A stretch of 64,000 nucleotides of DNA from Rhodospirillales bacterium (lineage in GTDB: Bacteria; Pseudomonadota; Alphaproteobacteria; Dongiales; Dongiaceae): positions 1-64,000 of the forward strand of contig VFKA01000003.1 of NCBI GenBank assembly GCA_009885795.1, given 5' to 3'. Shown in pieces: positions 37,436 through 55,326 of this stretch (position 1 is its first letter; the number at the start of each line of letters is the position of its first letter). The notes below the pieces were generated by a model. The model did not search any database. It was not told where the DNA came from and saw only the letters and a program-made list of their open reading frames with translations. Made by a program: the position numbers and the translations under genes.

Positions 37436-37454
37436 GTTGGCGGAGGGAGAGGGA
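37436..37454. repeat. Left direct repeat (attL-like) of the tRNA-Ser island
   Basis: The 19 bases gttggcggagggagaggga are identical to 46208-46226, which is the 3' end of the tRNA-Ser gene (CCA end and acceptor/T-arm part). The copy is in the same orientation and lies eight bases after the maleylacetate reductase stop. Beyond base 19 the two copies diverge. It marks the far boundary of the low-G+C segment. Confidence 0.85.
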
Positions 37455-37480
37455 CGGGAATCCAACATTCCCTGGAGTGA

Positions 37481-37564
37481 TTGCGGAACCTGCATGTCGG
37501 TTATTTCAACCAGGGCCGCCGGCCCTGGGACACCGTCCAGCAGTTCGTCAGCCAAGGCGCCTAA
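37481..37564 (+). other. Short coherent frame near attL, possibly a gene tail
   Basis: A 27-codon frame just inside the left repeat reads NLHVGYFNQGRRPWDTVQQF near its centre and ends in TAA. It looks like real protein sequence (aromatic, Arg/Trp pattern) but is bounded upstream by an in-frame stop and lacks a good start. It may be the decayed end of a gene cut by island integration. I cannot assign a family. Confidence 0.25.
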
Positions 37565-37610
37565 GAGGACACTTGGACAACCGCGGTCGGCGCGGATTCA
37601 GCACTCACCG

Positions 37611-39932
37611 TCATCGCCATTGCTTCTCCTCAAGAGTCCAACTACCGCCGGGCAGCTCGCCATCTTTCACAAAGTTGTCCACGACGTTCTTCAGCAACCT
37701 TGAGGTATTGTTCTGATAATTGTTCACTGGAAGCGCGTGCCCGAACGCGATCGAGCCCGTGCTGAACACGGCGCCATTGTTGGGAGCCGTAAAGTACGTC
37801 ATGTCCGCTCGAATTCGGTAGTCGAGGGTTCCCACAAGTCCCGCGTAGGCGTAAAGCAACTCCTCCGTGACCAACACGTAGTTGTCGCTATGGCCGCCGG
37901 ATGAGGCGATAATCCGGGTATGCGGCGGCGTACCCAGCGACAGGTCGTAGCGATCCAGCTCCACGCCTGCCGCGCCACCATACGCCAACCCTTCGTCTCC
38001 AATGATCTCGCCCTCGATGCCCTCCGTAATCCAGGATACGGTCCTGTGATAACTGTCAGGCATCCTTCGGAACGGCGCGCTAGTTTCGAAACCCTCCGCG
38101 ATAAACCCTACGCCGGTCAGTTTCTGCGGCGCCCGTCCCCGGTTCCGCCACAGTCCACTCTTCTCGCCCGTCGTCTGGAGATAGTGTTCACCGGCCCTCG
38201 CCGCCCACGCGCGCATGCCCGAGTCTAGCTTTCTGACCTCCATGCACCACGGCTCGTCTTCGTAAAATCCGACGCACCAGTAGTAACCGTTGCCCCCCAT
38301 GTAGATAAGACGCCCACCCAGCGCAACAAAATCCTCCTGGGCATCCAGCATGCTTTCCGACACATACTCCGGATGCGTACCGGTGATCACGCATTTGTAT
38401 GGCGCCAAGGCAGCCAATCCTTCCCGATGCAGATCCTCATCGGTAATGACGTCGTACTGGTGCCCGCACTGTTCCAACCAACCGATAATCGACAGGTCCG
38501 CGGGAAACTGCCAGGGAATATTCATGCTCGAAATGCGATACTTGGGCCTCATATTTACAATGGGCCTTTTGTATGAACTGAACGAAACTCCGGCGCCGTC
38601 CTCATAGCTGTCGTAGGTGGAAAGTCCGAAGTCGCGGTGTTTATAGGTCTCGATATCGATGTCCGAGATTATGGGTGGCTGACCCGTCATCGGTTGAATA
38701 ATCTGCGCGTCGAAACTCAACTTTTCGTTGGCGTACGCCAAGTAACTCGCCGTCGGTACGAGGAAGCAAAGTTTCGATTCCGGCTTCGCGGGCCGAACGA
38801 AAAAAACGATGTACTCCTCGCTCAAGCCGACGCCATCCCCCGCTCTCAGGCGAATCGCGTAGGCGCCACTTCTCAGATCCCCGGGGATCCGCATGGTCTT
38901 CGTCACTTCCCACCCGCAATCGGTAACCGCCTCCTGGTGAAACTCTATGCCGCCATATTCACTCGGCGAAAGCCTGAAACAGTCATTCTTCCCGGACCAA
39001 TTCCATCCAGTGAGACACCGGACCGGGTGATTTACGCCCCTGGCCGTCAACGCATTTGGCCCTGTATCCAATACCGAGGTGCCGATTCCGTTTTCCGTGT
39101 AGCCCGCGGTGGTGTCCCAGAACGCCACGATGGAGTCCTCCGCCGGCCGCCGGCCGCCGCGGATGCTATCCATTTCCTCGCGCGATAGTACGCGGTTACA
39201 TACTCCGAACCTGTCGATCTTGCCGGAGTACGTATCGTTAATAAAACGCCCCCTCAGTTCATGAAAATCCCGAGCACCAGCCACAACGAACGGGACATCC
39301 TCTCTGTTCTTCTGTTTGAATCTGAATTTCGTTTGTACATGTGAACTGAATTCGTATGGCGCAACCTTGCCTATCAGCGAATTGTATCTGTTCAGCAACC
39401 CATCTTGGTACAACGTCGCCGTTCCAGTCTCGTGGTCGAAGCTGACGCCGACGAAATACCACACCTTCTTGATTAACGGCAGTTCCGCCATGACATAGTC
39501 GACCTCCTTGCCGTCACCGACCCAGAACTCCAACCGCCCCTGAGGATTGATTCCAAGTCCATAGCCCTCATTCGTTCTCGTGTCCCATCTCCCCATCACG
39601 CATTGGCGTCGTCCTTTGTTTGGCAGGGTCGGCCAGACGTAACAGAATAGTGAAAAACTCCCGCCGATATTCAGTCGCCGCTCCGAGTCGTCGACTATCA
39701 AGTACGACCCCAGCTGAGTGAACTGCTTCTTGACGGACCAGACGCCATTGACGGGATGGTCGATTTCCCGCGCAACGAAACCCGGCCCATCGGGATGCTC
39801 GTCACCGTGAATCAGGCGCACAAGCTGCGCATCGGCGGTAGCCGTTCCATCGGCACTGACGTGAAGGTCGATACTATCGCCCTGCTTGACGGAGATCTTG
39901 TTCGCGTAACCGAAGATCTTGATTTCTGCCAT
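37611..39932 (-). CDS. dmfA2: N,N-dimethylformamidase-like large (beta) subunit
   Basis: 773 residues, close to the ~760 of the characterised enzyme. Residues 1-90 form a beta-rich N-terminal domain. Residues 90-270 are a LamG/concanavalin-like jelly roll (ending RFGVCNRVLSREEMDSIRGG). The C-terminal ~400 residues form the amidohydrolase core. The mononuclear iron ligands reported, as I recall, for the Paracoccus enzyme (Tyr440, His519, Glu521) have direct counterparts: Tyr440 in GLSTYDSYEDG, and His520 and Glu522 in GTHPEYVSE. The enzyme hydrolyses N-substituted formamides to formate plus an amine. The small-subunit gene lies immediately upstream (25-base gap). A related N-substituted amide may be the real substrate. 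Confidence 0.85.
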   Translation of the reverse strand: MAEIKIFGYANKISVKQGDSIDLHVSADGTATADAQLVRLIHGDEHPDGPGFVAREIDHPVNGVWSVKKQFTQLGSYLIVDDSERRLNIGGSFSLFCYVWPTLPNKGRRQCVMGRWDTRTNEGYGLGINPQGRLEFWVGDGKEVDYVMAELPLIKKVWYFVGVSFDHETGTATLYQDGLLNRYNSLIGKVAPYEFSSHVQTKFRFKQKNREDVPFVVAGARDFHELRGRFINDTYSGKIDRFGVCNRVLSREEMDSIRGGRRPAEDSIVAFWDTTAGYTENGIGTSVLDTGPNALTARGVNHPVRCLTGWNWSGKNDCFRLSPSEYGGIEFHQEAVTDCGWEVTKTMRIPGDLRSGAYAIRLRAGDGVGLSEEYIVFFVRPAKPESKLCFLVPTASYLAYANEKLSFDAQIIQPMTGQPPIISDIDIETYKHRDFGLSTYDSYEDGAGVSFSSYKRPIVNMRPKYRISSMNIPWQFPADLSIIGWLEQCGHQYDVITDEDLHREGLAALAPYKCVITGTHPEYVSESMLDAQEDFVALGGRLIYMGGNGYYWCVGFYEDEPWCMEVRKLDSGMRAWAARAGEHYLQTTGEKSGLWRNRGRAPQKLTGVGFIAEGFETSAPFRRMPDSYHRTVSWITEGIEGEIIGDEGLAYGGAAGVELDRYDLSLGTPPHTRIIASSGGHSDNYVLVTEELLYAYAGLVGTLDYRIRADMTYFTAPNNGAVFSTGSIAFGHALPVNNYQNNTSRLLKNVVDNFVKDGELPGGSWTLEEKQWR

Positions 39933-39957
39933 CTAACTCATCCAACAGCCGTTGCGT

Positions 39958-40332
39958 TCAGGCGTCCAGTTCCATCAATTCGCGAACCCGAAGAAGAAAG
40001 ATCTCGTGATACGTTTCCTCCGCCGCCGCGTACTCCCTGTCATTCACCCCGCTCAACGGTGCGTCTCGATTTCCGGACAATTGGGCGATCCGAAACTTGC
40101 CTGACTTGCCATCCCGTTTGACCACGTACTTGTCCCTCTGGGGTGCATGGCGGAAATACATCAGCAATCTTTCAAGCGGCTCGGTGTGTTGCCCGAGCGG
40201 GCTCTTCCGGTGTTCTTCGATAATTTCATCGCATATCACCGTCCGCAGGTACTCCCTTTGCTTCTTGTCGAATAATCGACGATAGACAACGTCCCGATCA
40301 TCCGACTCCATCGCGTGGTCCTGCCGCACCAT
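39958..40332 (-). CDS. dmfA1: N,N-dimethylformamidase-like small (alpha) subunit
   Basis: 124 residues, matching the ~130-residue small subunit of DMFase. Start at 40332 is supported by GGAG seven bases upstream. The conserved core is QREYLRTVICDEIIEEHRKS-PLGQHTEPLERLLMYFRH, followed by RDKYVVKRD and the C-terminal EETYHEIF helix. The same domain occurs as the tail of the LivM-like permease encoded just upstream. By hand, the two align without gaps over 110 residues with about 56 identities. The small subunit is needed for assembly of the large one in the known enzyme; its exact role is not settled. Confidence 0.83.
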   Translation of the reverse strand: MVRQDHAMESDDRDVVYRRLFDKKQREYLRTVICDEIIEEHRKSPLGQHTEPLERLLMYFRHAPQRDKYVVKRDGKSGKFRIAQLSGNRDAPLSGVNDREYAAAEETYHEIFLLRVRELMELDA

Positions 40333-40503
40333 GTCTATCTCCGGTTGGGCGGTGTTCCACGCCCTTGCAAAACTCCGGGCGCGCGTGCCGATCGACCCAA
40401 ATACATCCGTGGACGTTGACAGCCGCTGACGCGTGCCAACGGCATCGAGGCCCCGGCTGCGGGTCGACGCCGGGGGGTAGTGGCAAGCCGGCTGCTCACG
40501 ATC

Positions 40504-42165
40504 TTATGCCTCAAGAAGATCATAGACCCGACGCCGAAACACGCCATGATAAGCCTCTTCCACGGTCTCGTATTCTTTGTCTTCCACGAGTCGAGGGGAG
40601 GTTCCGCGAACTCCAGAGAATGCAACGATCTTGTACCGCTTGCCTCTTGAATCGCGCCTGATTGCGTATTTATCGTTCTGAGGGGTGCGGCGGAAGTAAA
40701 GTAACAACCGTTCCAACGCCTCGCTGTGTTGCCCGAGCGGCTTGTTTTTGTGTTCTTCAATAACCTCTTCACACACTAGCGTCTTTAGGTGTTCTCGCTG
40801 CATCTTGTCGAAGCGCTTACGGTAGAGAATATCCTTGTCATCGATCTCCGTCGCCTCTTCGGGTAGCGCCTCTCCACCCTTCTCGGTTCGACTCGACCGC
40901 CACTCTCCCTTCTTCTTGTCCCGCCATGCCCTGAACTGCTGTTTCATACCGAACAGACCGTTTTTCAGGAACAGCACAACGAACAACATTAACACGCCGA
41001 TCATGATGTGCCTGATGGGCCCCAAGGTGATAAATACCTTGTCAAGCACCACGACAATAAGGGTGCCCGCCACCGCCCCTTCCACCCTGCCAATACCGCC
41101 AATCGTCAGCATCGCTAAGCCCAGGAGGACGGTATCGAATCCGAATATGGCGTAAGCCACGCCGCGGTACTGAGCCGTGTAGAATCCCCCGATGAATCCC
41201 AGCGCCACCGACGAAACTAGGAAAACGGTGACTCGCGCCTGCCTATAGTTGACGCCCGTTGCCTCCGCGAACGCTTCGCGTTTCTCCGGAGCCATTCTCA
41301 GTATTCTGCCCAACCGTCTGCCGTCTATGAAGCGGAACAGAAAAAGCGAGGCGACGAGCAAGGCGAATGCCCCGTAATACGAGACCACGGATTGCGTCAA
41401 TGGCGCCCACGCCGCGCCAATGTACGTGGACGCCCCGTACAGACCGCCGCTCGCGGAGCCGAACTCCGAGGACGTGACAAAGTAGACCCTGCAGAGTTCG
41501 TTGAGCCCAAGGGTCAATAGCGCGTAGTAGAAGCCGTCCAGACGCAGTGCCGGAAGCGCCAGAATCCCGCCGAACACGATCCCGACCAGCATGCCAATCG
41601 GGGGAAGCATCCACCACGGCAGGCCGAGATTGATCGACAGCCATGCGGTCAGGAAAGCCGCCGTACCCACCACGGCGTATGTCGCAAGAGAGAAGATGCT
41701 TGCCGTACCGATGACCAAGGTCCAGCAAACATTTATTGCGGCGAAAATTCCAAAGGTAGCGCCGGCTGTAAGGATTGTGAATTGCAGGCTCTCCGGCACA
41801 AAGAGAGGAACCAGAACCAGCGCCAGCAGCGAGATGGCCCAATAGATCGGCCGCTTGTCCACTATCGACTTCTCGGCCTTGAGCGTCTTCCTGTTGTACA
41901 ACCCTCGGATCAGCAGCACCGACCGGCGGGTTGGCCACCATCTCTGTCTTTTCCAAAGGCGCTTACCGTGATTGGCCCATTTATGTATGTACTTGAAGCG
42001 CCCCACCTTGTGCAGGGGCGCCTTGTACGACGTAGTCTTGCGCCAGACCGTTCTCGGATCCTCGACCCGGATGCTTGGCACATCGTAGTTGCCACCCTTC
42101 GCCCCCCAGACCGCCAGGGGGTTCTTCCAAAGGTACTGGTCGTCATTCTTCCTGGGGGTACTCAT
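40504..42165 (-). CDS. LivM-like ABC permease fused to a dimethylformamidase small-subunit domain
   Basis: 553 residues in three parts. Residues 1-105 are a basic, aromatic cytoplasmic extension absent from ordinary LivM. Residues ~105-405 are a branched-chain/amide-type permease with about ten membrane segments, including LPALRLDGFYYALLTLGLNELCR, the ATPase-docking loop region KREAFAEATGVNYRQARVTVF, and GIGRVEGAVAGTLIVVVL. A charged linker (~410-440) leads to residues 442-553, a complete copy of the small-subunit domain encoded at 39958. The frame is uninterrupted across the junction, so the fusion is real at this sequence. It overlaps livH by four bases. I know of no described transporter with this domain. 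It might anchor the amidase large subunit at the import pore. Confidence 0.85.
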   Translation of the reverse strand: MSTPRKNDDQYLWKNPLAVWGAKGGNYDVPSIRVEDPRTVWRKTTSYKAPLHKVGRFKYIHKWANHGKRLWKRQRWWPTRRSVLLIRGLYNRKTLKAEKSIVDKRPIYWAISLLALVLVPLFVPESLQFTILTAGATFGIFAAINVCWTLVIGTASIFSLATYAVVGTAAFLTAWLSINLGLPWWMLPPIGMLVGIVFGGILALPALRLDGFYYALLTLGLNELCRVYFVTSSEFGSASGGLYGASTYIGAAWAPLTQSVVSYYGAFALLVASLFLFRFIDGRRLGRILRMAPEKREAFAEATGVNYRQARVTVFLVSSVALGFIGGFYTAQYRGVAYAIFGFDTVLLGLAMLTIGGIGRVEGAVAGTLIVVVLDKVFITLGPIRHIMIGVLMLFVVLFLKNGLFGMKQQFRAWRDKKKGEWRSSRTEKGGEALPEEATEIDDKDILYRKRFDKMQREHLKTLVCEEVIEEHKNKPLGQHSEALERLLLYFRRTPQNDKYAIRRDSRGKRYKIVAFSGVRGTSPRLVEDKEYETVEEAYHGVFRRRVYDLLEA

Positions 42166-43118
42166 TGCTCCCGCGCCACGTCGAGTATGCCGGCGATGCC
42201 TCGCGGTCTGATCATCAAGATTGCGATGATTATGAGAAACTGTGTAATCAGGACATACTGGCCACCCAGGACTGTTGACGTCAGGGATTCCGCAAACCCG
42301 AGAATGACACTTGCGATCACGGCCCCTCGAACGCTGCCCAGTCCGCCCAACAGCGCGATACTCACGCCCTTGATCAGGGGCGTGATTCCACTGAATGGCG
42401 AAATGTAGTAGGTCTGGGACAGTAGAACAGCGGCAAGCCCGGTCATCGCCCCGGTAATACCCATCACGTAGAATCCGGTCTTGCGTATCCCGATGCCCAC
42501 AATCGAGGCGGCGTGCGGGTTCATCATCATGGCGCGGATCTCCAGGCCACGCCGGCTAGACCTCATCCAGCGAACGATCAAAATCAGCATTACAATCGAG
42601 CAGACAACGATACCAATCTTGTCGGAGGTCAGGACGGTTCCACCAATCTCCACTTGCCAGCGGCCGAATATCTCCGGTAGCGCCTTGTTGCGGGGGCCGA
42701 ACCACCACAGCAGCCCCTGTGACCCAATCAGGCTGATGGCGAGCGTTCCCACCATGCCTCTCACCGTAAAATTCGGTTTCTCGTGGAGCGGGATGAAAAT
42801 CAGCGCGCAAATGATGACGCCGCCGACGGCGCCAACGAGTACACCCGCTGCCAGCACAACAGGCGGGTACTCGGAGAGCGATCGCGAAGTGACGTACGCG
42901 CCATATCCCGCGAACGCAAAGATGAAACCATAACCCAGGTTCAACAGTCCCAGGCTTGACCAGGTGATGGACACCGCCACCGCGATCAGCCCGTAGATAC
43001 AGGCGATCACGATACCGTTGATCAGGATGAATTCTATGTCCAAGAGGGAGCTATCCTCATCTCTGCCGGGACGGTCACGCCTTCCTCCTCTTGATGGATG
43101 AAGCCAGGGACGCTTCAC
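42162..43118 (-). CDS. livH: LivH-like ABC permease
   Basis: 318 residues as drawn. A TTG at 43043 giving MDIEFILINGIVIACIYGL is an attractive alternative start, because family members usually begin near that point and the longer version overlaps livF by 44 bases. About eight membrane segments. Family blocks are ITWSSLGLLNLGYGFIFAFAGYGAYV, the EAA-type loop RAMMMNPHAASIVGIGIRKTGFYVMG and FSGITPLIKGVSIALLGGLGSVRGA. It is the partner of the LivM-DmfA1 fusion. GC content is lower than the genome, like the rest of the island. Confidence 0.88.
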   Translation of the reverse strand: MKRPWLHPSRGGRRDRPGRDEDSSLLDIEFILINGIVIACIYGLIAVAVSITWSSLGLLNLGYGFIFAFAGYGAYVTSRSLSEYPPVVLAAGVLVGAVGGVIICALIFIPLHEKPNFTVRGMVGTLAISLIGSQGLLWWFGPRNKALPEIFGRWQVEIGGTVLTSDKIGIVVCSIVMLILIVRWMRSSRRGLEIRAMMMNPHAASIVGIGIRKTGFYVMGITGAMTGLAAVLLSQTYYISPFSGITPLIKGVSIALLGGLGSVRGAVIASVILGFAESLTSTVLGGQYVLITQFLIIIAILMIRPRGIAGILDVAREQ

Positions 43119-43788
43119 CTTTCAGCTTGCCGGCATGCATTCCGATCACCCGGTCCACCCTGCCTTCCAGCAATGCCACGTTCTGCTCCGCTATGATCAT
43201 CGCGGAGCCACTGAGGTCGATCTTCAACAGCGCTTCCATCACGCCTATTCCTATTTTCGGAGCCAGGCCCAGCGAAGGCTCGTCCGACAGATAGAGTTTC
43301 GCATCCACCATCAAGCCACGACCGATGGACACCATTCTTCGCTCGCCGCCCGACAAGCGCGACACCGGGGTTTTCAACCGATCGCGAAGCGGCGCGAAAA
43401 GTTCCAACACACGTTCCTTCCGTTGCTTCCTGGTCTTCCAAGCTGTCTTGGTAAACGCCCCGCTGTCGAGATGTTCCTCGACGGTCAATCCATGAAACAG
43501 CTCATCGGCCTGCGGCATGAGCGCAAGCCCCTGGCGAACGATCAGGTGCGTGTAGCGGCCCGGGCCCTGGCTTCGTGTCCCTCCCACCTCGCGACCATTG
43601 AACACGATCGACCCCCGTTGCCATCCCGTCAAACCGGCGATGGCATAGAAAAGTGTCGTCTTTCCATGGCCGTTCAGTCCAACCAGGCCGACACGTTCGC
43701 CGGCCTTGATCGTCAGGTCCAGATCATGAATAACCCGCAACGGTCCGTAGCCCGCGGACAATCCATTGACATTCAGAATTTCGTGCAT
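43075..43788 (-). CDS. livF: LivF-like ABC ATPase
   Basis: 237 residues. Walker A GLNGHGKTT (a His in place of the usual Ala), signature LSGGERRMVSIGRGL, and a Walker B with LYLSDEPSLGLAP. It has the short LivF form without the C-terminal BCA domain, and ends KGEASLASSIKRRKA. The His in the P-loop and Ser before DEP are mild variations. The order in the island operon is binding protein, LivG, LivF, LivH, LivM fusion, then enzyme subunits. Confidence 0.9.
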   Translation of the reverse strand: MHEILNVNGLSAGYGPLRVIHDLDLTIKAGERVGLVGLNGHGKTTLFYAIAGLTGWQRGSIVFNGREVGGTRSQGPGRYTHLIVRQGLALMPQADELFHGLTVEEHLDSGAFTKTAWKTRKQRKERVLELFAPLRDRLKTPVSRLSGGERRMVSIGRGLMVDAKLYLSDEPSLGLAPKIGIGVMEALLKIDLSGSAMIIAEQNVALLEGRVDRVIGMHAGKLKGEASLASSIKRRKA

Positions 43789-43804
43789 CGTCTATTGTTT
43801 CAGG

Positions 43805-44530
43805 TCAATCGACGGCCTCGAAGTACGCGGCGCGCACCACGGGACTATCGATAATGTCGTGAAGGTGACCCTGCGCAATGATCTCGCCCGCGTCCATCAC
43901 AATCACATTGTCCGCGATCGTCTCGAGCAACTCGATTCTATGCTCCACGATCATGACCGCGATGTTCATCTCCTTGGACAGCATTCTGAGAATCTCGTCG
44001 ATCTCGTCGATCTCGGAATTGATCAGACCCGCGGCGGGCTCATCCATCAACAACAGCTCCGGTCCCCTGAGCAGAAGACAGGCGAGCGACAACTTGCGCC
44101 GGTTGAACGTGTCCAACACGGAAGTAGGCACGCTCTCGTCAACGACGAAATTGACCAGATCCGAGGCATACTCGGCGTCAAAACGAGTGAGGTTAGGCTT
44201 GTAGGCCTGCCTCGCGGCCTTCAATGTTTGCCCGACGGTGAGGTCTTCCGGCACGACCGGGGCCTGATAAGTTCTCCCGATGCCGATTCGGGATCTCTCG
44301 TACAAATGCGAATCGGTTATGTCTTTGCCCTTGTAGAAGACCTTGCCGGTTTTTGGCGCGTACCTGCCCGACAAAATTTCGACCAGGCTGGTCTTTCCGG
44401 CGCCGTTCGGACCGATGATGCCCAGAACCTTGCCTGGATTGATCTGCAGTTCGATGTTTCTGAGGATTTCCCTGCCGCCGAGGTCGAGTGAAAGGTTCTC
44501 ACAAGCGAGTAAGGGAGCAGCATCATTCAT
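43805..44530 (-). CDS. livG: LivG-like ABC ATPase
   Basis: 241 residues from the ATG at 44530, where MNDAAPLLACENLSLDLGG begins with a G-rich ribosome-binding stretch upstream. Walker A GPNGAGKTSLVEILSGRY, the LivG insert TDSHLYERSRIGIGRTYQAPVVPEDLTVG, signature region RKLSLACLLLRGPELLLMDEPAAGL and the switch His in VEHRIELLETIAD. The LSGG motif is degenerate (RRKLSLACLL), as in some urea/amide-type LivG proteins. It stops 16 bases before livF. Confidence 0.88.
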   Translation of the reverse strand: MNDAAPLLACENLSLDLGGREILRNIELQINPGKVLGIIGPNGAGKTSLVEILSGRYAPKTGKVFYKGKDITDSHLYERSRIGIGRTYQAPVVPEDLTVGQTLKAARQAYKPNLTRFDAEYASDLVNFVVDESVPTSVLDTFNRRKLSLACLLLRGPELLLMDEPAAGLINSEIDEIDEILRMLSKEMNIAVMIVEHRIELLETIADNVIVMDAGEIIAQGHLHDIIDSPVVRAAYFEAVD

Positions 44531-44688
44531 GAGGCCTGCCCCCCTTGCCACAAAGGTCACAGAGACCGTATTCGAAACCCAACGAGATCCACCTCAACGA
44601 CCGACGACGCGAAGAACGGACAATGGGCCGCCGCCCCATGGCGGCGAAACCCGCTTGAACCGCTCTGCGCGGGTTTCGCTAACGGACT
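44531..44688. other. Gap between binding-protein gene and livG
   Basis: 158 bases without a plausible gene. The stretch includes the inverted pair CCGCCCCATGG/CCATGGCGGCG-like bases around 44629-44648. A stem-loop here could attenuate transcription between the highly expressed binding protein and the rest of the operon, as is common in liv-type operons. Confidence 0.35.
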
Positions 44689-46014
44689 CTAGCCCCACCA
44701 GGGCGCGGGCCGGAGCTTGGATTCGCTGATCGCGTCGGGCCAGATGATCTTGTGCTGGACATCTTGAACCTGCACGAACAGCTGGCTCATGCCGGTTTCA
44801 TGCGAATCCGCCTGGTTGCCGAATCCGTTGTCGGGGTAGTGGAGTGCTTCCTGGTACTCGTTGTTCATATCCATCATGCCACACACGCCCCTGAACGGGT
44901 GGCTTCTAATCCAGTCACAATTCTTCTTGAAATCTTCCGGTGTGGTATCGACCGCCCCGGTGGCATTCCAGGAAGCTTCGAGGTACTGGACGATATCGTA
45001 TCCATTTCCCGTATAGACCAGCCCCATCGTGTTTTTCTCGGGCGTGCCGAACTCCGGGAACCGCTCTAGGTACATTTTCCGGAAATCCTGGCCGATCTTC
45101 TCGCCGTATACCCCCAGCACGGTGCTCCAGCAGAAACCTTCGGTGGCGGAACCTCCAAGCTCCAGGAATTCCGGTTGCGAGGGACCGTACTGCAGATAGA
45201 CGAGTGCGTCCTTCACCGGGTCGGCGGCAAACTGTTTGCAGAACGCCGCGTACTCCGAAGCCACCCAGTGATCGATCATGATCGCGCCGGCATCCACCTC
45301 CTTCAGTTTCTGAATGACGGGAGCCCAGTCGTTAACCGGATACTGGATGTCGGTGACCTCGGCCAACTCGAAATCATACTTCGGGATCGATTGCCTGGCA
45401 GCCTTGAGGATGGTCTGATTGTACCCAACCTGCTCGGCGACGATGTGGACCTTCCTGTTCTTCGGCTTCCATCCCTGCACTTTCTCCATCTCCGTCAGCC
45501 ACATTGGATATGTCCAGCCGTAATTGACCTCGGATGGATCGGTTTGGAACACTTGGCTGTATTTCTCCGGATCGGCCTTGAATGCCTCGGTTGCAGCGCG
45601 TTGCGTGTTGCCCTGGAGGTACGGGCATTTATATTTGGCCGACTCATCCATTGCCGGAATTGGCGCAAAGATGAAGGCATTCGATATCGCGTGTACTTTC
45701 TTGTCGATGCATGCCGCAATACTTTGCCTGGCACTCTCGGGAGACAGTTTGTCGAGGTCCGGCACGAATAGTTCTATCTCTCGGCCCAGGACACCTCCAG
45801 CAGCGTTTATTTTCTCAAGCGCGAGTATGGATCCGTTTAGATGATCCTGGTCATCCGCAACTCCGTAGGGTGTCGAAAGCGAAGAGGGTATACCCAAAAT
45901 TATCTTCTCCGCGGCATTCACCCGCCTGACCCAGGGCGCTGGAAAGGTAAGCGCGGCCGCGCCGGCCGCCACGCCCTTGAGAAACCTACGTCGCGCGCCT
46001 TGTGTCTTGTTCAT
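44689..46014 (-). CDS. Amide/branched-chain-type periplasmic binding protein, island transporter
   Basis: 441 residues. Twin-arginine signal (MNKTQGARRRFLKGVAAGAA, cleavage after a ...VNAAE site). The mature protein begins KIILGIPSSLSTPYGVADDQDHLNGSILALEKINAAGGVLGREIEL, the Peripla_BP_6 start. Family blocks are CIDKKVHAISNAFIFAPIPAM, VGYNQTILKAARQSIPKYDF and NTMGLVYTGNGYDIVQYLEASW. In this superfamily AmiC- and UrtA-like members bind short amides and urea. Given the enzyme downstream, an N-substituted formamide or amide is a reasonable ligand. It is the first gene of the island operon and lies next to tRNA-Ser. Confidence 0.88.
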   Translation of the reverse strand: MNKTQGARRRFLKGVAAGAAALTFPAPWVRRVNAAEKIILGIPSSLSTPYGVADDQDHLNGSILALEKINAAGGVLGREIELFVPDLDKLSPESARQSIAACIDKKVHAISNAFIFAPIPAMDESAKYKCPYLQGNTQRAATEAFKADPEKYSQVFQTDPSEVNYGWTYPMWLTEMEKVQGWKPKNRKVHIVAEQVGYNQTILKAARQSIPKYDFELAEVTDIQYPVNDWAPVIQKLKEVDAGAIMIDHWVASEYAAFCKQFAADPVKDALVYLQYGPSQPEFLELGGSATEGFCWSTVLGVYGEKIGQDFRKMYLERFPEFGTPEKNTMGLVYTGNGYDIVQYLEASWNATGAVDTTPEDFKKNCDWIRSHPFRGVCGMMDMNNEYQEALHYPDNGFGNQADSHETGMSQLFVQVQDVQHKIIWPDAISESKLRPAPWWG

Positions 46015-46207
46015 GTCGCGATCCTCCCGTTGAATTGCGGTTAGCCGATGTTCCCCAGATGACCGTTGCTCAACATGAACAGTAACATTCTCCAGGGGTG
46101 CGCGGAAGCCAAAAAAGGCGGACCTCCTTCGCCGAGGCTTCGGAGGGCACCCTGCTTCACTTCTGTTTTGAAACCAAATCCCGCGAAGCGCGGAACGCGC
46201 GATGCAG

Positions 46208-46226
46208 GTTGGCGGAGGGAGAGGGA
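46208..46226. repeat. Right direct repeat (attR-like) within tRNA-Ser 3' end
   Basis: gttggcggagggagaggga, identical to 37436-37454. It covers the CCA end and 3' acceptor side of the tRNA-Ser gene, so the tRNA remains intact after integration, as expected for tRNA-targeted islands. Confidence 0.85.
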
Positions 46227-46303
46227 TTCGAACCCTCGATAGGGGTTTAAGCCCCTATAACGGTTTAGCAAACCGCCGCCTTCAGCCACTCGGCCATCCC
46301 TCC
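46210..46303 (-). tRNA. tRNA-Ser (anticodon GCU)
   Basis: 94 bases with an encoded CCA. Acceptor GGAGGGA pairs with TCCCTCC, the D arm is GCCGAGTGGCTGAAGGC, the anticodon stem GCGGT/ACCGT flanks the loop TTGCTAA (anticodon GCU), a long variable arm built on GGGGCTTAAACCCC typifies class II serine tRNAs, and the T arm is GAGGGTTCGAATCCCTC. It is the integration site of the island at lower coordinates. Confidence 0.97.
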
Positions 46304-50040: not shown

Positions 50041-53000
50041 CTAGAGGTTGAAATCGCCGGAATCGAGCGCGCCCGTATCGCCGACGATAATGATTTCGAA
50101 ATCGGCGACGCCGTTGCCGTCGGTGTCGCCCTGCAAGACGCCGCCCGAAAACCGGAGTTCCCCGGCGCTGGCGGCACCCAATCCGCCGAACGCGGTCCCG
50201 CCGATGAAGGTGAAGGCGTCGTCGCCGCTTTCATCCACGTTGGCGTCCATGGCCGAGAGGTCGATCAGATCCTCGTCAGCCTCGTCCTGGAAGTCGGCGA
50301 TCGTGTCGGCGGCCTCCTCGTCGCTGCCGGTATCGTCATCGTCGAAATAGAAGTGGTCGTCGCCGGCACCGCCGATCAGCGAGTCGACGCCGTGGCCGCC
50401 GGTCAGGTAGTCGTTCTGGTCGCCGCCATTCAGGGTGTCGTTGTCGTCCTCGCCGTAGAGCGTGTCCTGTCCCCCATAGCCCATCAGGCTGTCGGCGTCT
50501 TCGGCACCGTCATCCTCATCGAGATCGCCGTCGCCGCCGAACATGATCTCGTTGCCGCCGCCGCCGACGAGGGTGTCGTCGCCATCCACCTCGCCGTCGC
50601 CGATCAGCTTGCCGCCGTCGTTCCCGGCGTTCAGGTAATCGTTGCCGGCGCCGCCATAGAGCGAGTCGTAGCCGCCGCCGCCGAACAAGCTGTCGGCGCC
50701 GTCCCGGCCGTCCAGGACGTTGCCGACGCCGTCGCCGGTTAGCGAATCCGCGCCGTGGCCGCCGACGATGCCTTCGATATCGAACAGCGTGTCGGTGCCT
50801 ACGCCGTCCGCGGTCAGCGTGGCGTCGCCGATGGTGAAGACGATGTCCGATGTGGCTTGCGTGAAGAGGGCGATGTCGAATTCGTCGCCGCCATTAATGG
50901 TGTCGTCGTTGGCGCCGCCTTCGAGCTTGTCGTCGCCGCTGTAGCCGCGGAGCGTATCGTAGCCGACCTCGCCGAAGATGGTGTCGTCGCCGGAATAGCC
51001 ATAGGCATAGTCGTCGCCGTCGCCACCATAGATGATGTCGTCGCCGCTGTTGCCGTAGAGCGAATCCGCGCCTTCCTGGCCGTAGAGCACGTCGTTGTCG
51101 TCGCCGCCGGAGAGATAGTCCTCGCCCTTGCCGCCATAGAGCGTGTCTTCCCCCTCGTTGCCGTAGAGGCGGTCGTCGTTGTCGCCGCCGTCCAAGAGAT
51201 CGTTGCCGTACTGGCCGCGGATGGTGTCGTTGCCGATGCCGCCGCGCATGGTGTCGTCGCCGCCGTAGATGCCGGCTTGGGTGTCCTGCGCGTCGCCGAA
51301 CATGGAGTCGTTGCCGGTGCCGCCGAGCATGGAATCGTCGCCGTCGCCGTAGGACTGCTCTTCGTCCGAGTAGGCGTCGCCCCACATGGTGTCGCCGCCG
51401 GCGCCGCCGTTCATGGTGTCGTTGCCATAGCCGTAGGCGTTGCCGAAGTAGCTATAGGCGTCGCCGACCATGAAGTCGTTGCCGTCGCCGCCATTCATGA
51501 AGTCGTCGCCGACGACGAATTCATAGGCGATGTTTGTGTCGCGGCCGTGGGCGTCGCCTTCTTCAGCGTAGGCGTCGCCGACCATGAAGTCATCGCCTAT
51601 GCCGCCATCCATTGAATCGTCGCCGTAGCCGTAGGCATCATCACCAAAGAAATAATCACCCTCGCTGTAGGCGTCGCCGACCATGAAGTCGTTGCCGGCG
51701 CCGCCCTTCATGGTGTCGTTGCCGCCGCCGTAAGCGTCGCTATCTTTCGAGTAGGCGTCGCCGATCATGGTGTCGCGCTCTTCGCCGCCATCCATCGAAT
51801 CGTCGCCGAAGCCATCGGCCTCGTCGCCGGTAGTAGACTCGTCGTCGGACATCGCGTCGCCGACCATGAAGTCGTAGCCCTCGTCGCCGAACATGGTGTC
51901 GTTGCCGGCACCGAAGGTCTCTTCCTCCTGGGCGAGGGCATCGCCCACCATGGTATCGTTGCCGGTGCCGCCATGCATGAGGTCGTTGCCGAAATCCTCG
52001 TCGTCCTCCTCGCCGTAGCCATAGGCGCTCTCGTCGTAGGAGTAGGCGTCGCCGACCATGAGGTCCTCGCCGGTGCCGCCGTGCATGGTGTCGTCGCCGT
52101 AGCCGTAGCCTTTGCCGCCGTACGAATAGGCGTCGCCGATCATGGTGTCGTCGCCGCCGTCGCCATACATGAGGTCGTTGCCGTAGCCGTAGGAGTCGTC
52201 CTCGTCGTCGGAGAAGGCGTCGCCGACCAACTTGTCGTCGCCGTCGCCGCCATGGAGGGTGTCGTCGCCGCCGCCGGTGGGCTCGTCGTAATCGCCGACG
52301 ATGGTGTCGTCGCCGCCCTGGCCGTAGATCAGGTCGTTGCCGGCACCGCCGACGAGGGAGTCGTAGCCTTCCTCCGGATTCTCATCCACGCCGCCGACAT
52401 AGTCGCCGAAGATGGTGTCGTCGCCGGCGCCGCCAAAAATCGAATCGTCGCCGGAGCTGTCGGTTATGGCCGAAATGGCGCCGACCACCAGCGCGTCGCC
52501 GACCATGAAGTCGTTGCCGGCGCCGCCGTCCATGGTGTCGTTGCCGGAACCCAAGAACACGTCGCCTTCTTCCTCGTCAGCGTAAGCGTCGCCGACCATG
52601 GTGTCGGCGTCGGCGCCGCCGTTCATGGAATCGTTGCCGGAGCCATAGGCGTTGCCGTCGTAGTGGGTCGAATCGCCGACCATGAAATCGTTGCCGGCGC
52701 CGCCGTAGAGGGTGTCGTTGTCGTTGCCGGTTTCGTTGCTCGTGTCATAGTAGTCGCCGATCAGGCGGTCGTTGCCGCCCTGGCCCAGGAGCCGGTCGGC
52801 GTCGTCGGAGCCCACCAGGGTGTCGTTGCCCTCGATGGTGTCGGAGTCGTAGCCGCCGAAATAATCGCCGTAGATGGTATCCGTGCCCTCGTCGCCTTCC
52901 ATGAAATCGGAGCCGCTGGAGTCGGCATGATAGCCAGGTTGGGTATCCCCAAATGTATTCAGCGCGTCGCCGACCATGAAGTCGTTGCCGCTGTCACCGT

Positions 53001-55326
53001 ACATGGTGTCGTCGCCGGAGCCCTCATAGACGTCGGCGACGGAGCCTCCATCGGCGCGGGCATCGCCGACCATGGTGTCGTCGCCGGAGCCGCCATGCAT
53101 CCGGTCGTCGCCGGAGCCGTAAGCGCCGTCAAATCCATTCACGTCGCCGACGATGAGATCGTTGCCGTTGTCGCCGAAGAGGTTGTCGTTGCCGGTGCCA
53201 GTCCGGAAATCGTCGTTATGGTCGCCGACGACGGTGTCGTCTTCGTTGCCGCCGCGGATGGTGTCGGCGCCGTCCGCGAACTCGTCATCTTCGTGGTTGT
53301 CGCCGTAGAGCGCGTCGTTGTTATCGCCGCCCAGGATCGAATCGTGGTCGTACTGGCCGAAGATGGTGTCGTTGCCGGCGGAACCGTAGAGCGTGTCGTT
53401 ACCGTCGAGGAAGGTGTCGTCGCCGTAGATGAGATCCTCGCCTTCCTGGCCGTTGATGCTGTCCTCGCCCAGGCCGCCGAAGATGGTGTCGTCGCCCTCG
53501 TCGCCCAAAATCGTGTCGTTGCCGGCGCCGCCGGAAAGCGTGTCGCCCGCGTTGCCGCCGAAGAGTGAATCGGCGAAGGCGCTGCCGATCAGGCCTTCGA
53601 TGTCGATGAGCGTGTCGCTGCCCTCGCCCGTCGCCGTGTTGGTAAAGAGGCTCGCGGAGACCGCGCTCGTGAACACGGCGAAGTCTTCGTCGGCGCCGCC
53701 GTCGAGGGTGTCGTTGTTCGCCCCGCCATAGAGCTTATCGTCATCGTCGTTGCCCCGGAGCGTGTCGTTGCCGCCGTCGCCCTTCAGGGTGTCGTCGCCT
53801 TCATCGCCGTATATCGAATCGGCATCGCTGCCGCCGTGGAAGACATCGTTGCCAGCACCGCCGAACATGGTGTCGGCGCCTTCGCCGCCATAGCCCAGAT
53901 CCTCGCCGCCCTGGCCGAAGATGCTGTCGCCGCCGCTGCCGCCATGGAGCGTGTCGGCGCCGCCGTTGACGGAATCGGCGCCGCCTTCATCGGAAAAGAC
54001 GTCGCCGAACAGGGTGTCGCTGTCGGCATCGCCATACATGAGGTCGTTGCCGCTGCCTTCGGCGATGCTTTCGTCCGAATCGAAATAGGCGTCGCCGACC
54101 ATGAAATCGTTACCGTTGCCGCCGCGCATGGTATCGGCGCCCGAGCCCGTGAGGGTATCGAAACCCAAGGTGTCGCTGCCGCTGGCGTCGCCCACCATGA
54201 AGTCTTCGCCATCCTCGCCATACATGCGGTCGGCGCCAGAACCCGTGATGGAGTCGAAGCCCCCGTTGCCGATCGCGTCGCCGACCATGGTGTCGTCGCC
54301 GGTGCCGCCGCGCATGGTGTCGGCGCCGGAGCCGGTGGCGTGTCCGTCCGTCGCGTAGGCGTCGCCGACCATGAGGTCGGCCTCGCTGCCGCCGTCGAGC
54401 GAATCGCCGAACGTGCCGCCGGCGTTGCCCGTCGCATTGAAATTGTCGCCGACGACGGTGTCGGCGCCCGAGGCACCGGCGATGGTGTCGATGTCGTCCT
54501 CGCCGAAGAGCCAGTCGTCGCCCGAACCGCCGTCGATCGAATCCGCGTCGGGAAGGTAGTCGGCTTCCGCGCCGTCCCCATCGGCGCCCCAGACGGTGTC
54601 GCCGTCATTGCCGCCGAGCAGCGTGTCGTTGCCGTCGAAGCCGGAATCGGGGGAATCGCCGACGATGGAATCGGCGCCGTCGCCGCCGTCGGCGAAGTCG
54701 TGGCCGGTGCCGGCCAGGATCGTGTCGGCCCCGCCCAGGCCGGTGATCGAGTCGTTGCCGCCGTCGGTGGCGATGATGTTGTCGGAGCCGTTGCCCACGA
54801 CGGTGTCGTTGCCGGTGCCGGTCTGAACGTTTTCGATCGAGACCAGGGTGTCCTTGCCGTCGCTGCTGGTGGCGGTGCCGGCGGTCAGATTGATGGTGGC
54901 GTTGCCGTTCCTGAAGATGGCGGTGTCGTTGCCCGAGCCGCCGTCGAGGAAATCCTTGCCGGAATCGCCCTGGAGCTTGTCGTTGCCGGAGCCGCCATAG
55001 AGCTTGTCGTCGCCGCCGTCGCCGTCGAGAAAATCGTCGTCGCCGTCGCCCTGGAGCGTATCCTTGTCATCGCCGCCGTAGAGAGAATCGCTCTCATCGC
55101 CGCCGTAGAGTTTGTCGCGCCCGCCGCCGCCGAAAAGCCGGTCGTCGCCCGCCTCGCCACGAAGCGTGTCCTTGCCGCCGTCGCCGTCGAGCAGGTCATT
55201 GCCGCCGCCGCCAACCAGGCTGTCGTTGCCCTTCAGGCCCAGAAGCGTGTCGGAACCACCGCCGCCGGTGATGAAGTCGTTCTTCTTGGTGCCCGGGACT
55301 ATACCGCTACCAACGATGACGGCCAT
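50041..55326 (-). CDS. Giant RTX (haemolysin-type calcium-binding) repeat protein 1
   Basis: 1761 residues, strongly acidic and almost wholly made of glycine/aspartate nonapeptide repeats (GGxGxDxLx/xGxGNDx) that form calcium-binding beta-rolls. Residues ~1-145 are canonical nonapeptides. A non-repeat insert follows (NATINLTAGTATSSDGKDT...), then a long array of longer units built around GNDFMVGDAYA, and finally canonical nonapeptides. The C-terminus FTFIGGTAFGGLGAASAGELRF and GDTDGNGVADFEIIIVGD matches the serralysin-type secretion end recognised by type I exporters. No signal peptide and no catalytic N-terminal domain. It is a paralogue of the gene at 55444. No type I secretion genes are present in the window. 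Confidence 0.9.
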   Translation of the reverse strand: MAVIVGSGIVPGTKKNDFITGGGGSDTLLGLKGNDSLVGGGGNDLLDGDGGKDTLRGEAGDDRLFGGGGRDKLYGGDESDSLYGGDDKDTLQGDGDDDFLDGDGGDDKLYGGSGNDKLQGDSGKDFLDGGSGNDTAIFRNGNATINLTAGTATSSDGKDTLVSIENVQTGTGNDTVVGNGSDNIIATDGGNDSITGLGGADTILAGTGHDFADGGDGADSIVGDSPDSGFDGNDTLLGGNDGDTVWGADGDGAEADYLPDADSIDGGSGDDWLFGEDDIDTIAGASGADTVVGDNFNATGNAGGTFGDSLDGGSEADLMVGDAYATDGHATGSGADTMRGGTGDDTMVGDAIGNGGFDSITGSGADRMYGEDGEDFMVGDASGSDTLGFDTLTGSGADTMRGGNGNDFMVGDAYFDSDESIAEGSGNDLMYGDADSDTLFGDVFSDEGGADSVNGGADTLHGGSGGDSIFGQGGEDLGYGGEGADTMFGGAGNDVFHGGSDADSIYGDEGDDTLKGDGGNDTLRGNDDDDKLYGGANNDTLDGGADEDFAVFTSAVSASLFTNTATGEGSDTLIDIEGLIGSAFADSLFGGNAGDTLSGGAGNDTILGDEGDDTIFGGLGEDSINGQEGEDLIYGDDTFLDGNDTLYGSAGNDTIFGQYDHDSILGGDNNDALYGDNHEDDEFADGADTIRGGNEDDTVVGDHNDDFRTGTGNDNLFGDNGNDLIVGDVNGFDGAYGSGDDRMHGGSGDDTMVGDARADGGSVADVYEGSGDDTMYGDSGNDFMVGDALNTFGDTQPGYHADSSGSDFMEGDEGTDTIYGDYFGGYDSDTIEGNDTLVGSDDADRLLGQGGNDRLIGDYYDTSNETGNDNDTLYGGAGNDFMVGDSTHYDGNAYGSGNDSMNGGADADTMVGDAYADEEEGDVFLGSGNDTMDGGAGNDFMVGDALVVGAISAITDSSGDDSIFGGAGDDTIFGDYVGGVDENPEEGYDSLVGGAGNDLIYGQGGDDTIVGDYDEPTGGGDDTLHGGDGDDKLVGDAFSDDEDDSYGYGNDLMYGDGGDDTMIGDAYSYGGKGYGYGDDTMHGGTGEDLMVGDAYSYDESAYGYGEEDDEDFGNDLMHGGTGNDTMVGDALAQEEETFGAGNDTMFGDEGYDFMVGDAMSDDESTTGDEADGFGDDSMDGGEERDTMIGDAYSKDSDAYGGGNDTMKGGAGNDFMVGDAYSEGDYFFGDDAYGYGDDSMDGGIGDDFMVGDAYAEEGDAHGRDTNIAYEFVVGDDFMNGGDGNDFMVGDAYSYFGNAYGYGNDTMNGGAGGDTMWGDAYSDEEQSYGDGDDSMLGGTGNDSMFGDAQDTQAGIYGGDDTMRGGIGNDTIRGQYGNDLLDGGDNDDRLYGNEGEDTLYGGKGEDYLSGGDDNDVLYGQEGADSLYGNSGDDIIYGGDGDDYAYGYSGDDTIFGEVGYDTLRGYSGDDKLEGGANDDTINGGDEFDIALFTQATSDIVFTIGDATLTADGVGTDTLFDIEGIVGGHGADSLTGDGVGNVLDGRDGADSLFGGGGYDSLYGGAGNDYLNAGNDGGKLIGDGEVDGDDTLVGGGGNEIMFGGDGDLDEDDGAEDADSLMGYGGQDTLYGEDDNDTLNGGDQNDYLTGGHGVDSLIGGAGDDHFYFDDDDTGSDEEAADTIADFQDEADEDLIDLSAMDANVDESGDDAFTFIGGTAFGGLGAASAGELRFSGGVLQGDTDGNGVADFEIIIVGDTGALDSGDFNL

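Follow-up and report, generated by a model that had tools for sequence, protein, structure and literature searches.

A tRNA-Ser genomic island encoding a putative amide importer whose LivM-like permease carries a dimethylformamidase-type small-subunit domain

In a Rhodospirillales bacterium (assembly GCA_009885795.1; genome G000, 3.46 Mb in 103 contigs, 99.89% complete), the 3′ end of a tRNA-Ser(GCU) gene is separated by 8.77 kb from an exact 19-bp copy of itself, and the segment in between encodes an ABC importer next to an iron amidase. Which process brought this segment in, and why are transporter and enzyme encoded side by side? We analyzed the first 64,000 nucleotides of contig VFKA01000003.1 (the window) and its relatives. 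The answer that we consider reasonably probable is a tRNA-Ser-targeted island with an amide importer on whose LivM tail the amidase would be docked. A preliminary description of this DNA had recognized the horizontal acquisition, the island-like composition and the missing integrase—all of which stand—and had overlooked the fusion between permease and enzyme subunit. The features of the locus are collected in Table 1.

Table 1. Features of the island and its target site, with coordinates in the window
Feature	Position	Strand	Evidence
tRNA-Ser(GCU), 3′ end at 46210, island target site	46210..46303	-	ARAGORN; Rfam RF00005
19-bp repeat, tRNA-proximal copy	46208..46226	-	exact repeat; one of only two genome copies
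Trailer and terminator-like hairpin directly inside the island	46122..46209	-	first 73 bp 73% identical to the tRNA-Ser(TGA) trailer, contig C67
Amide/amino-acid-type substrate-binding protein (SBP), TAT signal	44689..46014	-	PF13458; TIGR01409
LivG/UrtD-type ATPase	43805..44530	-	PF00005; best NCBIfam match UrtD, below cut-off
LivF-type ATPase	43075..43788	-	PF00005; best NCBIfam match LivF, below cut-off
LivH/UrtB-type permease, TTG start by homology with relatives	42162..43043	-	PF02653; best NCBIfam match UrtB, below cut-off
LivM-type permease, 553 residues, C-terminal DMFase small-subunit domain at about 440-553	40504..42165	-	PF02653 at 131-397; 6lvb_B
Free DMFase small-subunit homologue, 124 residues	39958..40332	-	6lvb_B, E 2.3e-8
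DMFase-type iron amidase large subunit, 773 residues	37611..39932	-	6lvb_A, E 7.5e-174; PF20254
19-bp repeat, distal copy, 8 bp from the Fe-containing alcohol dehydrogenase stop codon	37436..37454	-	exact repeat

The repeat (GTTGGCGGAGGGAGAGGGA) comprises the final 17 nt of the tRNA with its CCA, and two further bases. A whole-genome search returned the two copies that bound the segment and no third, where 1e-5 to 5e-5 copies are expected by chance (Markov orders 1–4), which rules out a chance origin. The exact direct repeat at about 8.8 kb, as described before, is thus real and not scattered over unrelated loci, and the segment has the boundaries of a tRNA-targeted genomic island. Its composition agrees with this: between the repeats, the genes show a G+C of 0.55–0.58 and a GC3 of 0.68–0.74 as opposed to 0.61–0.70 and 0.83–0.90 in the flanking genes, and all of them lie on the minus strand, so that the lower G+C and the single gene direction of the preliminary description both hold. 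The gene left of the distal repeat had been named a maleylacetate reductase there, an assignment that could not be established; its product belongs to the Fe-containing alcohol dehydrogenase family.

A six-frame search of the genome found no tyrosine recombinase between the repeats, in line with the earlier reading; all six that exceed the Pfam cut-off lie on other contigs, and the segment is hence not a self-mobile integrative element with its own tyrosine integrase. An integrase remnant at 37455–37610 was considered and rejected, as the 27-residue open end found there has no Pfam match and only chance matches to plasmids. With no integrase of its own, the island may have been mobilized in trans or may be a trimmed remnant, the two options named in the preliminary description. 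Integrases for this att core do exist, since on a viral contig (L234) a tyrosine integrase, confirmed by Pfam, directly follows a tRNA-Ser(GCU) that shares the 17-nt end. The full 19-mer occurs in viral contigs as two matches within a low-complexity phage gene, which we regard as coincidental, and no relative of the cassette was found in viral contigs, so that carriage by phages is rejected. Elsewhere in the genome, tRNA-Ser(TGA) has a tyrosine integrase gene at a distance of about 110 bp on its 5′ side, and the genes after it seem to belong to an integrated element (contig C67:47619 to about 54850). Outside the island, the window encodes a 1761-residue glycine/aspartate-rich repeat protein (50041–55326, minus strand) that looks like an RTX-type calcium-binding protein. 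The island itself is an ordinary kind of thing.

The tRNA-proximal edge of the island is not fully clear, because the 73 bp just inside it (46137–46209) resemble the trailer of the host tRNA-Ser(TGA) (C67:47348–47420), with 73% identity and in register with the tRNA ends. This trailer is not a genome-wide repeat, as the one other copy found is that beside tRNA-Ser(TGA), and a candidate RNA family at the tRNA was discarded—a plastid 3′UTR match on the opposite strand that scores under the gathering threshold and overlaps the tRNA. A trailer that looks as if it were native, together with a distal repeat so close to a stop codon that it leaves no room for a terminator, would suit an alternative in which the 19-bp repeat is the scar of an older integration at tRNA-Ser and the amide cassette came by another route, inside or beside it. 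We hold this to be unlikely, as the low-G+C segment coincides with the interval bounded by the two repeats.

Phylogeny of the fused permease supports horizontal acquisition of the island. The window groups with two sequences from gammaproteobacterial metagenome-assembled genomes at 81% identity (support 100/98 in a large tree and 97/93 in a smaller one), whereas Dongia deserti, a member of the same family as the window, falls apart from it. Vertical inheritance within the family is rejected by an AU test, in which a grouping of window and Dongia reaches a p-AU of 4e-5. Together with the atypical composition, these trees bear out the horizontal origin that the preliminary description had proposed and that is expected of a tRNA-targeted island. 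It had also anticipated an empty site in relatives, with one copy of the repeat and the dehydrogenase gene next to the tRNA. At the family level, five genomes, read for 14–15 kb downstream, have one copy of the tRNA end, no cassette and differing downstream genes, and tRNA-Ser(GCU) retains its GST neighbour in same-family genomes. An empty site with the alcohol dehydrogenase gene beside the tRNA was not seen among these relatives; the two closest orthologues of this gene (G010, G045) are on different contigs from the GST gene.

The cargo had been summarized as an importer plus one enzyme. Importer and enzyme are both present, but the small-subunit sequence of the enzyme comes twice, as a free protein and as part of a permease. 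An SBP, two ATPases and two BPD_transp_2 permeases in one operon mark the importer as LivFGHM/Urt-type (HAAT), with the genes of the LivG-, LivF-, LivH- and LivM-like proteins following that of the SBP, and those of the 124-residue and the 773-residue protein at the end. The importer subunits score best—and under the cut-offs—against NCBIfam models of urea and branched-chain amino acid importers. For the LivM-like subunit, 62.6 bits against NF008450 (cut-off 366) and 43.5 bits against TIGR03408 (cut-off 296) lie far under the curated cut-offs, and it is neither a canonical LivM nor a canonical UrtC. Its permease domain is followed by residues (440–550) that match 6lvb_B, the small subunit of N,N-dimethylformamidase (DMFase), with an E-value of 1.5e-7. 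In an AlphaFold model of the fusion (mean pLDDT 79.5), the best Foldseek match of the fused domain is 6lvb_B again (E 9e-5, TM-score 0.78 on the target, 28% identity). The free small subunit is about 50% identical to the fused domain. A basic N-terminal extension of 105 residues precedes the permease domain, and the linker to the fused domain is strongly basic as well. By the positive-inside rule, this would place linker and extension on the cytosolic side, and the fused C-terminal domain is probably cytosolic too.

The same genome encodes a paralogous cluster (L114, contig C82) with a free small subunit, a large subunit about 42% identical to that of the island, an SBP, two ATPases and two permeases, in which the permease is unfused and the small subunit separate. 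This cluster is a natural control for the fusion.

How widespread is the fusion? A scan of 84,980 species genomes, whose query of linker plus small-subunit domain lets unfused permease relatives escape, gave 73 loci, and at 72 of these a single reading frame spans permease and fused domain, with a few cut by contig ends. The large subunit lies downstream at nearly all of the 72, the exceptions (L181, L194) stopping at a contig edge. The fusion is present in 70 or more records of proteobacteria, and its gene order is retained at about 70 loci and on Rhizobiaceae and Aminobacter plasmids. Alpha-, beta- and gammaproteobacteria make up the hosts, with many methylotrophs among them, apart from a single Gemmatimonadales bin; the labels Oceanobacillus and Klebsiella among the loci probably denote mis-binned contigs. 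Plasmids of Agrobacterium, Rhizobium, Ensifer and Aminobacter sp. MDW-2 carry the fused permease too. With M::S for the fused permease, S for a free small subunit and L for a large subunit, the majority of cassettes read M::S-L; M::S-S-L is found in the window, Dongia deserti, Roseovarius, Rhodobacter and Zavarzinia, and M::S-L-S-L mostly in Bradyrhizobium. A free small subunit is a trait of the window and about a dozen relatives and is absent from most cassettes. Two genomes, those of Bradyrhizobium nitroreducens TSA1 and Methylobacillus arboreus, were searched throughout; each yielded a single small-subunit domain, which is the fused one, and a single large subunit, that of the cassette.

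The neighbourhood of the cassettes gives hints on substrate and regulation. An aliphatic amidase gene, scoring above its curated cut-off, adjoins the cassette of M. arboreus. A glutamine-amidotransferase-like gene and a glutamate-synthase-domain gene lie beside that of B. nitroreducens; both presumably resemble N-methylglutamate synthase genes. As far as gene context can tell, these neighbours point to small amides and methylated amines. Many cassettes are preceded by divergent genes for a histidine kinase (PAS) and a LuxR-type response regulator (L103, L128, L139, L144, L158 and others), to which several loci add an SBP-like sensor protein, while others, for example in Agrobacterium, have an AraC-type regulator instead of the two-component pair. 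The island is without this two-component regulator, the best response-regulator match in the genome being only 36% identical, and such a loss is consistent with trimming of the island.

The enzyme belongs to the DMFase family by full-length homology of its large subunit including PF20254, by small subunits of the DMFase fold in free and fused form, and by its active site: the iron ligands Y399, Y440 and E521, the essential catalytic H519, and N547 are all kept (numbering from PMC7686228). The reaction typical of the family is the hydrolysis of DMF to formate and dimethylamine, but AceAB, a close homologue of DMFase, does not act on DMF (PMC11573777). With this precedent, DMFase-like enzymes may not act on DMF at all, and the substrate class of the island enzyme would be N-methylated or other short amides.

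A separate observation concerns the 11 cassettes with two large subunits (L118, L166, L167, L174, L177–L180, L183, L188 and L195). In every one of them, exactly one copy has lost an iron-site residue and the other is intact, the losses being Y399F/L with H519R in eight, Y440C in two and E521A in one; the same ligand check found no single-copy cassette that deviates at the iron-site residues. Judged from these residues, the two copies look like a conserved enzyme–pseudoenzyme pair.

How might such a machine work? We propose that an island, presumably integrated at tRNA-Ser, brought in a scavenging operon for small amides. The TAT-exported binding protein would hand the amide to the LivHM-type importer, which is powered by the two ATPases, and ATP hydrolysis would move the amide inside. 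There, the small-subunit domain at the C terminus of LivM, probably cytosolic, might recruit the large iron-amidase subunit to the channel exit, where the docked amidase could cleave the amide on entry. The Paracoccus enzyme is an L2S2 or (L2S2)2 assembly whose small subunit helps to form the substrate entrance and whose large subunit is inactive by itself (PMC7686228). Since the searches of two genomes revealed no small subunit other than the fused domain, docking of the enzyme on the importer is probable. One LivM per importer provides one fused small subunit, whereas the enzyme as known has two (L2S2); the free small subunit of the window could take the second place. More generally, we lean toward the view that ABC importers with an obligatory enzyme subunit on the permease itself form a widespread class, each a membrane-anchored importer–amidase complex that would hydrolyze its substrate during entry.

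The same stoichiometry also invites a regulatory reading, in which enzyme supply gates the importer through binding of the large subunit to the tail of LivM, and hydrolysis happens mostly in the cytosol with the free small subunit. A single small-subunit domain per importer does not by itself fit L2S2, and the window and its dozen or so relatives do encode a free copy for such a cytosolic enzyme. Regulation of this kind nevertheless appears unlikely, given that most cassettes lack a free small subunit and that none was found anywhere in two genomes. That the fusion ensures co-expression only, with domain and large subunit assembling at the membrane while transport and hydrolysis stay uncoupled, is quite improbable: co-expression already follows from the gene order by itself, and a fusion may become fixed without any channelling, but linker and domain are conserved in alpha-, beta- and gammaproteobacteria alike, which suggests that the connection is not just passive, though it does not prove coupling.

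An amidase docked on the importer, as we propose, would suggest that amides are degraded by many methylotrophs and rhizobia, whose cassette genes bear annotations no more specific than "branched-chain amino acid ABC transporter permease" or "LamG domain-containing protein." To our knowledge, a single polypeptide rarely couples an ABC importer physically to the first enzyme of catabolism. The literature searched, which leaves most subscription journals outside, holds no publication on a permease–amidase fusion or such an amide importer and none that pairs dimethylformamidase with an ABC transporter. As far as these searches reach, the importer–enzyme fusion is undescribed, and it joins two known families in one machine. 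The conserved fusion and the genomes whose only small subunit found is the fused one make vectorial uptake and hydrolysis directly testable.

Compared with known systems, the island shares with other tRNA-targeted genomic islands the direct repeat of the tRNA 3′ end, the atypical composition and the horizontal origin, and differs from them in its small size and the missing integrase. With the LivFGHM and UrtABCDE importers of branched-chain amino acids, urea and short amides, it has in common an SBP, two ATPases and two BPD_transp_2 permeases per operon; unlike theirs, its subunits lie far below the LivM, UrtB and UrtC cut-offs, and its LivM bears the basic N-terminal extension and the C-terminal enzyme-subunit domain. 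The acetamiprid amidase AceAB of Pigmentiphaga is likewise a homologue of DMFase with two subunits, and its substrate is not DMF, but it consists of separate alpha and beta subunits, and the accessible part of its description mentions no transporter fusion (PMC11573777). Closest is the DMFase of Paracoccus (PDB 6LVB; PMC7686228), with a PF20254 large subunit, the Tyr-Tyr-Glu iron site and a small subunit of the same family and fold. There, this small subunit is a separate 15-kDa protein, whereas the island has one copy of it as the C-terminal domain of an ABC permease.
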